Below the pieces are notes generated by a model. The model did no database searches. It was not told the origin of the DNA and saw nothing but the letters and a program-made list of their open reading frames with translations. A stretch of DNA of 43,871 bases from NCBI GenBank assembly GCA_903858935.1, contig CAIOKO010000231.1, positions 1-43,871 of the forward strand, read 5' to 3'. The stretch is from an uncultured Schlesneria sp. GTDB taxonomy: Bacteria > Planctomycetota > Planctomycetia > Planctomycetales > Planctomycetaceae. The first letter of the stretch is position 1; every line of letters starts with the position of its first letter. Shown here in pieces: positions 5,041-21,087 of the stretch. Made by a program: the position numbers and the translations under genes.

Positions 5041-5357
5041 ATTCTCTGCCAATCTCCGCCGCCGAAATGATTATTATCCACGATTGATCGCGGATAATTC
5101 CAAATCATTCGGCATATCCGCGATCGCAGACGGTTTTTCTGGCCATCGCGGAGATCACAATTCTGTCGTTATGGCATTTTGCAAGTGAATTTTGCTGCGA
5201 GCTTGGATGCTTCTGATCACGTACGAAATGGTCGCAAAGGGCCTGCCACCGATGACAGGGCGATGGGCGAATTGCCATTCATCCATCGTTGCGTAAATGC
5301 CGTTATCGTCGAACGCCTTGTCATCCGACATCGGTGGCCAGTACGTTGCCAAGACTT

Positions 5358-5470
5358 AAAGTTCGAGTTGTGCCACTGCATCGGAGACTTATCCGACGCA
5401 ATGCCTTCCCTATTTTCCAGGCAATCGAAGTGCACTGGGTGACCGAAGACGATCATCCGGTGGCACCGAC
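5358..5470 (+). repeat. Dispersed MITE-like repeat, copy 1
   Basis: This roughly 113-base segment resembles 42588-42703 along its length: 21 of 23 bases match at 5378-5400 versus 42610-42632, and 14 of 15 at 5453-5467 versus 42686-42700. The ends carry inverted TGCCAC (5371) and GTGGCA (5460), as expected for a small non-coding hairpin or MITE-like element. No coding capacity is seen. Confidence 0.65.
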
Positions 5471-5507
5471 AATTAGATTGGACATCGGACTAGGTCAAAG
5501 GCCCGTT

Positions 5508-5542
5508 AACCACCTCCGCAGGGGAGGTGGGGTTTCGTTTTG
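5508..5542. terminator. Strong GC-rich hairpin, probable terminator
   Basis: CCACCTCC (5510-5517) pairs with GGAGGTGG (5523-5530) around a five-base loop, flanked by AA/TT-rich sequence, with GGTTTCGTTTTG following on the plus strand. No plus-strand gene ends here. It most likely terminates the minus-strand gene that stops at 5589, or acts in both directions. Confidence 0.5.
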
Positions 5543-5588
5543 TCACGTCAAATTTCTTCAGGGCATTGTCAATATGTGCGCCCCAACA

Positions 5589-6071
5589 TCATTCTTCGTC
5601 GTCAATCCACACGTCGTCCTCATCGTCACATTCGAGGCTCGCCGAAATGGATTCCAACTGAGGCCGCGTCGTTTCCAACTCGTGATCGGTTCCTTGAAAC
5701 ATGACCAGCACCGTCTGATTGCTTGTCTGAAAAGCACGCAGGGTTGCCGAGTTCAACAGGTCGTAGCAGACGAAATCCAGATCGCGACCAAGCGACGGCA
5801 AGCCGCTCAGGCTACCGACGGCGGTCAGAACATCCACCTCTTCATAGTCTTGTTCGAACGCAGCCACGACCGTGTCCAGGACTGCTTCGGGATCGGGGCG
5901 AGATTTAAACAAGACGATGGTCCAGAACGAAGTTCCATAACTCTGCACAGAGATCGTCGTTTCATCGCTGCTCGTTTCTTCGCTCAGCTCCCACGCTGAT
6001 GGAAAACGAAAACGAACTCCGTAGTTGCTGTAATCAGTCAGCGAAGATGGAATTAATCGTGGTTGACACAT
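5589..6071 (-). CDS. Hypothetical protein with PsbP/DcrB-like domain
   Basis: From the first ATG in frame (6071) the product has about 160 residues. It begins MCQPRLIPSS and continues YSNYGVRFRFPSAWELSEE, the opening of PsbP/Mog1/DcrB (DUF1795)-type folds, where a Tyr-Gly-hydrophobic-strand leads to a Pro-x-x-W. A strand TTISVQSYGTSFWTIVLF and helix DPEAVLDTVVAAFEQDYEE follow, and the tail is acidic (CDDEDDVWIDDEE). No signal peptide is present. The frame stays open to a TTG at 6239; that longer form would add a His/Asp cluster (SHHHHDHDHDADG) and has no better ribosome binding site. The fold call is by pattern only and the function is unknown. Confidence 0.7.
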   Translation of the reverse strand: MCQPRLIPSSLTDYSNYGVRFRFPSAWELSEETSSDETTISVQSYGTSFWTIVLFKSRPDPEAVLDTVVAAFEQDYEEVDVLTAVGSLSGLPSLGRDLDFVCYDLLNSATLRAFQTSNQTVLVMFQGTDHELETTRPQLESISASLECDDEDDVWIDDEE

Positions 6072-19935: not shown

Positions 19936-21087
19936 TCATTTAATCGACTGGACCAGCGAGTCTTTCTCTTGCCGTGACAGCCCCTTGATTTCGAGTTCTC
20001 TTTTGAGGGCATGACTGCGGCTTGGCTGTTCTTCGTGATAGACCATGACCACGGGTAAGCGGCTGCGGGTGTAGCGCGATGCCGTTCCGGCATTGTGCTG
20101 CTGCAAACGGCGAGCTAAGTCAACTGTGATTCCCGTATAGAGTGATCCGTCTGCACATCTCAGGAGATAAACGAACCAGGGAGAATCCGTCTCTTCATTT
20201 TTCAGCTCGTCAAGCAGCTTCTTCACCGCTGCTTCTTTTGCTTTGGCCTCGACTTCGACGGTGATTGACTTTCGCCGCCAGCACTTTGGGAAATCCATGA
20301 CATCGATGAAGTCGTGGTGACGTTCCGGCTTTGGCCCTTCCCAGCCTTCGATCGGGCTGGAGATATGGAACATCGGCTCGCGGTTCCAAGTTGCTAGTGC
20401 CTGCTTTGTGGCCTGTTGGATGCTGAGTTCATCGGGATTGCAGCGGTGATGATGCACGTCGTAGACCAGCGGGATCCCCGTCGCCTTGCAGATCGGAAGT
20501 AGATCCTGGGGGGTATAGGTCTTATCATCGTTTTCGACGGTTAATCGGCTTCGGACCCTGTTTGAAAGCCGATCGAGATTGTGTGCGAAATCAGCAAGTG
20601 CCTTCGGTTTGTCGCCATAAGCTCCGCCGCCATGGATATTAATGACGTCAGCGCCGATCCATTCTGCGACTTCCCCCTGATATTCAAGTTCCTGCACCGA
20701 CTTATCCACCACGTCTTCGCGAGGTGAGTTCAGTACGACGAACTGATCAGGGTGAAAGCATGTTCGCAGCTTGTTCTTCCGGGCGAGTTCTCCGCATTCT
20801 TTGAAGCGGCGAATGATTTCATCGCCATCGGGCAAGTCACCGACCTGATACCCACAAACAGGATGTGTCTTGATCGGAAGAATCTGGCTGTTGACGCGGA
20901 AACAGCCAATGTCGTTGTCGGCGCAAAACTGGAGAGAAGCAAACAGCGCATCTGCATTTTCGCTGCAAAGGCGGCTGAGCTTCGCCAGGGCGTCCGGTCG
21001 TTTCATTTTGCTGATAGCCGTCGCGGTTGTGGTGACGAACTTGATAGGCTGGTCACGAAACATGCAGCAGAGGCCGAGGCGGATCAT
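19936..21087 (-). CDS. uvsE: UV damage endonuclease UvsE fused to a GIY-YIG nuclease domain
   Basis: From the ATG at 21087 the protein has 383 residues. Residues 1 to about 280 are UVDE/UvsE, a TIM-barrel endonuclease that cuts 5' of UV photoproducts and some other lesions: MIRLGLCCMFRDQPIKFVTT, RTCFHPDQFVVLNSP, VINIHGGGAYGDK, TVENDDKTYTPQDLLP, and PLVYDVHHHRCNP carry the metal ligands. After a Lys/Glu-rich linker (about 280-303) a complete GIY-YIG (URI-type) domain follows: WFVYLLRCADGSLYTGIT, DLARRLQQHNAG, RYTRSRLPVVMVYHEE and ALKRELEIKGLSRQEK, with the catalytic Tyr pair, Arg and Glu. Both units seem intact. The open frame continues upstream to 21348, but UvsE proteins begin at this Met, and the extension looks non-coding. 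No good ribosome binding site is visible. Confidence 0.9.
   Translation of the reverse strand: MIRLGLCCMFRDQPIKFVTTTATAISKMKRPDALAKLSRLCSENADALFASLQFCADNDIGCFRVNSQILPIKTHPVCGYQVGDLPDGDEIIRRFKECGELARKNKLRTCFHPDQFVVLNSPREDVVDKSVQELEYQGEVAEWIGADVINIHGGGAYGDKPKALADFAHNLDRLSNRVRSRLTVENDDKTYTPQDLLPICKATGIPLVYDVHHHRCNPDELSIQQATKQALATWNREPMFHISSPIEGWEGPKPERHHDFIDVMDFPKCWRRKSITVEVEAKAKEAAVKKLLDELKNEETDSPWFVYLLRCADGSLYTGITVDLARRLQQHNAGTASRYTRSRLPVVMVYHEEQPSRSHALKRELEIKGLSRQEKDSLVQSIK

Follow-up and report, generated by a model that had tools for sequence, protein, structure and literature searches.

The nick made by a UV damage endonuclease (UVDE, UvsE) leaves the lesion attached at the 5' end, and in fungi a flap nuclease acts after UVDE. 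To our knowledge, it is not settled which bacterial enzyme removes the lesion after the UVDE nick. As described in PMC8307549, UVDE enzymes introduce a nick on the 5' side of both CPD and 6-4 photoproducts, and they also cleave AP sites. Since disruption of the UVDE gene of Sulfolobus acidocaldarius left UV survival unchanged, as stated in PMC3139894, membership of PF03851 is no proof of a UV role. Joining an enzyme that nicks at damage to a GIY-YIG nuclease has a precedent in the 2006 survey of GIY-YIG proteins (PMC1564403), which describes two proteins with an EndoIII-GIY-YIG fusion, for which two-sided cleavage at damage or the making of a gap was proposed, as well as the fusion of a plant MutS homologue (CHM) with a GIY-YIG domain. 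The text of this survey contains no UVDE, UV damage, UPF0213, YhbQ, YazA or any word beginning with planctomyc-. A description of a UVDE-GIY-YIG fusion was also not found in the titles and abstract openings of the literature searched, outside which most subscription journals lie, and domain databases may well contain the architecture as an automatic entry.

The fusion gene analysed here is located in a window of 43,871 nucleotides, the whole stretch of DNA from an uncultured Schlesneria sp. that was examined, and occupies positions 19936..21087 of the minus strand, where a stop-free translation and full-length relatives support a product of 383 amino acids plus stop. The preliminary description had claimed, without naming a strand, a single uninterrupted frame encoding a complete UVDE-type nuclease and an intact GIY-YIG domain, and this was borne out: the minus-strand frame consists of 383 codons without an internal stop and is closed by a stop codon, no frameshift or stop interrupts the junction, and other genomes show the same junction. 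Read on the plus strand, this interval contains many stops and is not open. The frame runs on upstream of 21087 to a length of 508 amino acids from stop to stop; because similarity in complete relatives begins at residue 1 or 2, the start at 21087 is likely the true one. The UvdE (PF03851) TIM-barrel nuclease domain spans residues 16-269 (20281..21042, minus strand) and was identified by Pfam (E 2.2e-64; 217.8 bits, cut-off 24), by NCBIfam and by its solved relatives, namely the UV endonuclease chains 3tc3 and 2j6v with its variants. It is followed by a GIY-YIG (PF01541) domain at residues 304-373 (19969..20178, minus strand), assigned by Pfam (E 1.9e-17; 63.7 bits, cut-off 22.6) and, with respect to its UPF0213 type, by its solved relatives. 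The only other Pfam match in the protein, AP_endonuc_2, was weaker. Among the NCBIfam models, the score for the uvde equivalog TIGR00629 (192.7 bits) lies above the cut-off of 124.45, whereas that for NF002640 (174.2 bits) lies below the cut-off of 456. An assembly or sequencing artefact is ruled out by the recurrence of the conserved fusion across many genomes; the fusion encoded in the window is real and conserved; it joins nuclease types that are both known, and the sources searched do not describe it.

The junction (residues 281-303; 20179..20247, minus strand) was delimited by alignments and comprises the presumed UVDE C-terminal helix region and a short variable linker. The helix region is common to UVDE-only relatives, which terminate shortly after a stretch of the VEVEAKAKE-AVLKL type, and in the fusions the GIY-YIG domain is found closely behind this stretch, which probably represents the last UVDE helix. 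From L295 to W304, the linker comprises 3 residues in ten of the 27 distinct fusions, 5 residues in two, 8 in ten and 9 in five, and the joining position common to the fusions would fit one origin.

Both active sites were compared in an alignment of 28 fusions, 27 of them distinct (L050 and L098 are identical), with identities to the window protein from 91% down to 65%. The window protein and all 28 fusions retain Y317 (codon 20137..20139), R327 (20107..20109) and E364 (19996..19998, all on the minus strand), which we take to be the second motif Tyr, the catalytic Arg and the metal-binding Glu of GIY-YIG, in agreement with the domain having been described as intact; Y307, G319 and H331 are identical throughout as well. 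In the UVDE half, the presumed metal-ligand positions, for which we took those of the Thermus structure aligned to the fusion, are equally conserved: H75, H112, H152, E185, D210, H213 and H241 are identical in 28/28 sequences and E280 in 27/28, the exception being a Lys in L036. When 12 sequences including outside references were considered, H112, H152, E185, D210, H213 and E280 were present in all 12, H241 in 11 and H75 in nine.

The residues that presumably contact the lesion in the Thermus enzyme are Y6, Q104 and Y105. At the corresponding positions, all 28 fusions keep the Gln, while Y6 is replaced by Leu and Y105 by Phe; the Thermus N10 loop was left out of the scoring, as it does not align to F10. 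Phe at the Y105 position is also found in four of six outside UVDE references. The N-terminal aromatic position is occupied by Tyr in five and Phe in one of these references, and because this Tyr/Phe is Leu in the fusion clade, the lesion preference may differ from that of other UVDEs. Position M239 is Met in 19, Leu in eight and Val in one of the 28 fusions; the aligned residue is Lys in Thermus and two other outside references (3/6 without Lys) and Met in the Sulfolobus enzyme.

The preliminary description had compared the GIY-YIG half with the N-terminal domain of UvrC, and this analogy has to be given up. The closest natural solved matches are the UPF0213 proteins 1zg2 (E 6.1e-17) and 1ywl (E 2.9e-16), the two remaining, weaker ones being designed proteins (E 1.7e-5 and 7.6e-5), and comparison with the genome's own UvrC gave a BLAST E of only 0.10, which together rule out a GIY-YIG domain of the UvrC type. 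The fusion protein did not match the UvrC/Cho family models of NCBIfam, and Pfam found in it neither UVR and RNase H domains nor the Endonuclease III domain that defines the COG1833-EndoIII fusion. The Slx1 cluster is marked by the absence of a C-terminal Asn, according to PMC1564403. In the window protein no Asn follows E364, and one is present in two of the 27 distinct fusions, so that it is not a conserved residue. As judged by sequence, the GIY-YIG half is of the small UPF0213 (Slx1-lineage) type and not of the UvrC/Cho type. Given that no biochemical activity of any UPF0213/COG2827 protein was found in the literature searched, incision on the 3' side has no direct family precedent. Since the domain groups with the Slx1 lineage instead of UvrC/Cho, the statement that it cuts 3' of damage is an extrapolation.

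A search of planctomycetes for the combined architecture identified an intact fusion, defined as one stop-free match with a query start ≤3 and end ≥379, in 24 of 170 genomes of Planctomycetaceae (25 genes, hand count). Fusions are also present in another family of the class (G040 and G389) and in Roseimaritima sediminicola JC651 (Pirellulaceae), the protein of which (L053) shares 64-65% identity with that of the window. Within the genus of the window's genome, eight of 15 genomes carry the intact fusion (hand count) and 12 any UVDE. UVDE-only genes are commoner, with 39 near-full-length matches in the 170 family genomes (hand count; query start ≤3, end 291-314; four have internal stops, one of these three) versus the 25 fused genes. 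In a 392-genome draw of the phylum, a near-full-length UVDE of the clade (query start ≤3, end ≥291) was found in 24 genomes, with five fused (hand count). Among the 67 loci listed in a contig scan, 22 are fused over most of the query (query start ≤60, end ≥355), with L054 excluded, the alignment of which runs through stops and lacks GIY-YIG; L059 and L067 are further fused loci with a late query start. Four loci in records titled Candidatus Kuenenia stuttgartiensis (L033, L040, L041, L059) contain fusions 76-82% identical to that of the window, and the names of these MAGs may be wrong.

Nei-Gojobori dN/dS ratios range from 0.038 to 0.103 in the UVDE part (nine of ten pairs, one saturated) and from 0.098 to 0.224 in the GIY part (eight of ten pairs, two saturated). 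Because these ratios are low in each part, both halves are kept by purifying selection, and together with the catalytic residues they rule out a dead GIY-YIG domain. The distances of the two halves correlate (Mantel r 0.62), with none of 5000 permutations reaching a value as high, for 28 rows and also for the 27 distinct ones. In the UVDE tree, fused and UVDE-only rows interleave, with 15 state changes over 82 rows (L118-L122, L021, L117, L078 and L013 were left out as divergent, long or degraded); a 91-row tree, in which L054 was counted as fused, has 13 changes, of which the starred branches alone force at least four. A single clade of all 29 fused rows in the UVDE tree was rejected (p-AU 0.0064). 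For the GIY tree of 62 rows, a clade of the fused domains plus six rows was not rejected (p-AU 0.46), a weak result from about 84 columns; eight long rows were left out here, and L036 and five rows with UVDE-tail or linker-like stretches were counted as fused. The data are most simply explained by a single fusion event, after which the GIY half was lost several times and genes were exchanged. Repeated gain of the GIY half is also possible, as change counts cannot separate gain from loss.

From the sequence reading, the fusion gene lies between a gene for a SAM-dependent methyltransferase, which is also backed by a family profile match, and rsmH, downstream of mutL and aroDE; the copy in G005 is likewise surrounded by mutL, aroDE, rsmH and the two genes that follow. 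In the genome of the window, UvrA and UvrB score above their cut-offs, and a photolyase is encoded as well. Its UvrC is encoded by a frame of 449 amino acids (L134:2098-3444, equivalent to G000:C103) with GIY-YIG, UVR and RNase H domains in Pfam and a TIGR00194 score of 419.3 against a cut-off of 285.45 bits; a C-terminal helix-hairpin-helix gave no Pfam match in it at the threshold used. With this score, the idea that the fusion exists because UvrC is incomplete was rejected, and canonical nucleotide excision repair (NER) looks present. Across the 15 genomes of the genus, UvrA was above cut-off in all, UvrB and photolyase in 13 each, and GIY-YIG matches in UvrC-sized frames (449-504 amino acids) in all 15, with only that of the window's genome being family-identified. 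With UvrA, UvrB, UvrC and a photolyase in the genome, the fusion supplements NER and photoreactivation and does not replace them. As a separate observation, the UvrA matches at G000:C32:58335-64700 fill an open frame of 2552 amino acids with two successive UvrA units, and frames of 1853-2632 amino acids with UvrA matches occur in 14 of the 15 genomes.

Control by the SOS response was ruled out, as LexA-type boxes were not above chance upstream of the gene: four patterns gave 0, 1, 0 and 0 matches in 87 upstream regions versus 0.5, 0.7, 0.3 and 0.1 in mononucleotide shuffles. In PMC1839093, an SOS box is reported for a single COG2827 gene of Caulobacter, which served to connect COG2827 genes with repair. 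An anti-phage role was likewise rejected, PADLOC models giving 0 families at E 0.001. A query coverage of 80% was reached in none of 134 matching phage and none of 92 matching plasmid records, and none of the best 80 of 399 relatives from viral contigs matched past query residue 312. Ten of the 134 phage records match at 60-80% identity, above the UVDE matches listed, and these may be GIY-YIG matches. An IMG/VR contig of 67.7 kb carries a UVDE match (L170:4001-4885) that is 82% identical to the window protein over residues 1-295 and is either a phage gene or part of a misfiled planctomycete contig.

The best explanation of the architecture is that a UvsE/UVDE enzyme probably gained a planctomycete GIY-YIG domain of the UPF0213 (Slx1-lineage) type at its C-terminus and kept it in some of the planctomycetes. 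The simplest role for a nuclease fused in cis is that of a partner in removing the lesion, and the fusion names a candidate for this step after the UVDE nick. The architecture, the intact active-site residues, the purifying selection and the correlated evolution of the halves speak in favour of this reading; the greater number of UVDE-only genes, the interleaving of fused and unfused states, the frequent broken copies and the non-UvrC type of the domain count against it. We consider it close to an even call, and a little below it, that the protein is a conserved accessory two-nuclease enzyme, the halves of which cooperate in a broad sense at the same lesion. According to what is known of its family, the UVDE domain would find the lesion, a photoproduct or possibly an AP site, and nick immediately on its 5' side. 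A second cut of the damaged strand, 3' of the lesion, would then come from the GIY-YIG domain on its linker of 3-9 residues, releasing the lesion in a short fragment or flap, and filling and sealing would close the gap; we infer the second cut as well as its position and its timing before or after repair synthesis. That a single polypeptide performs ATP-independent dual incision with no need for UvrA, UvrB or an additional flap nuclease, as a planctomycete invention with an origin independent of UvrABC and of eukaryotic NER, is a narrower proposal and distinctly unlikely. Because the domain is of the Slx1-lineage kind, flap or branch cleavage following strand displacement comes close in likelihood to a direct 3' incision. 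By guilt of fusion, the protein also provides a lead linking UPF0213/COG2827 proteins to damage repair.

The alternative that survives best has the two activities act in sequence: UVDE would nick, a polymerase would displace the strand and the GIY-YIG domain, as a bacterial structure-specific nuclease resembling Slx1, would trim the flap carrying the lesion, taking the place of the fungal flap nuclease instead of making a direct dual incision. The UPF0213 type of the domain, which the absent C-terminal Asn places with prokaryotic Slx1 by the criterion of PMC1564403, and the reported cleavage of branched DNA by eukaryotic Slx1 together with Slx4 are consistent with such a sequence, as are the many UVDE-only relatives, which would be predicted if the second step can also be taken over by a different nuclease. 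However, the literature searched yielded no UPF0213 activity reports and the RING finger of eukaryotic Slx1 has no Pfam match in the window protein, and we regard this course as possible but rather doubtful.

It is unlikely, in our estimate, that the GIY-YIG domain works on its own on branched or single-stranded DNA and gains from the fusion nothing but co-expression or co-localisation. GIY-YIG matches outside UVDE in many planctomycete genomes, the many UVDEs that lack the domain and the frequent switches between fused and unfused states would agree with an independent nuclease, although purifying selection, the correlated evolution inside the fusion and the short linkers speak against it. 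Its use elsewhere is also illustrated by genus g42, placed near Gimesia in the UVDE tree, in which the same domain type follows DUF6933 (PF22016), as checked by Pfam in L135 and L136 (genomes G280 and G291), with similar frames in L137, L138 and L140. Four of the five genomes with these frames have an unfused UVDE, and G280 has the UVDE fusion.

Broken copies are frequent, and some are rearranged. In G005, the fused gene (L144:2671-3948) is accompanied, in the aroDE-rsmH block, by a GIY-YIG-only frame of 132 amino acids (5331-5726) about 1.4 kb away towards rsmH, the upstream stretch of which resembles the UVDE-GIY junction; its GIY domain is 87% identical to that of the window and the fused copy of G005 82%, so that the pair looks like a duplication with one copy lacking the UVDE half. 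Similar remnants, in which a stretch resembling a UVDE tail or linker precedes a GIY-YIG gene, were found in G006, G028 and G034, a second, interrupted copy is present in G007, and in L078 a deletion runs through the GIY half. These remnants and the deletion in L078, the two unrelated partners UVDE and DUF6933 (Pfam-checked in two proteins) and the recent insertion of such a domain into HsdR, perhaps functionally unimportant according to PMC1564403, would suit a promiscuous, near-neutral C-terminal add-on that is soon lost and does not cooperate with its partner, but with dN/dS of about 0.1-0.2 in the GIY half and catalytic residues identical in 28/28 fusions down to 65% identity this is very improbable.

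In comparison with known systems, the fusion shares with UVDE/UvsE (PF03851, TIGR00629; 2j6v, 3tc3) the complete domain, a score above the equivalog cut-off and the presumed metal-ligand residues, and differs by the C-terminal GIY-YIG domain and the N-terminal Leu in place of Tyr/Phe; in contrast to the Thermus enzyme, it also lacks the Lys at the M239-aligned position. With UPF0213/COG2827 (1zg2, 1ywl), on the prokaryotic Slx1 side, it has in common the whole domain, the catalytic residues and, in the window protein, the lack of an Asn after the Glu. While UPF0213/COG2827 members are stand-alone proteins of about 100 residues, the domain here forms the C-terminal part of a damage endonuclease. 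The plant CHM fusion likewise carries a Slx1-type GIY-YIG at the C-terminus of a DNA maintenance protein, but its partner is a MutS homologue and not a damage endonuclease. The EndoIII-GIY-YIG proteins (COG1833; MJ0613, MMP0538) resemble the fusion in joining a damage-nicking enzyme to a GIY-YIG nuclease; however, they are archaeal, with another damage enzyme and another GIY-YIG family that has a semi-conserved Cys/His extension. In UvrC, both cuts reside in one protein, as proposed for the fusion, and a GIY-YIG cut 3' of the lesion, established for UvrC/Cho, is only proposed here. Whereas UvrC needs UvrA and UvrB and makes its 5' cut with an RNase H domain, the fusion has no UVR or RNase H match, and if its one chain makes both cuts, it would represent an excision nuclease far simpler than UvrABC.
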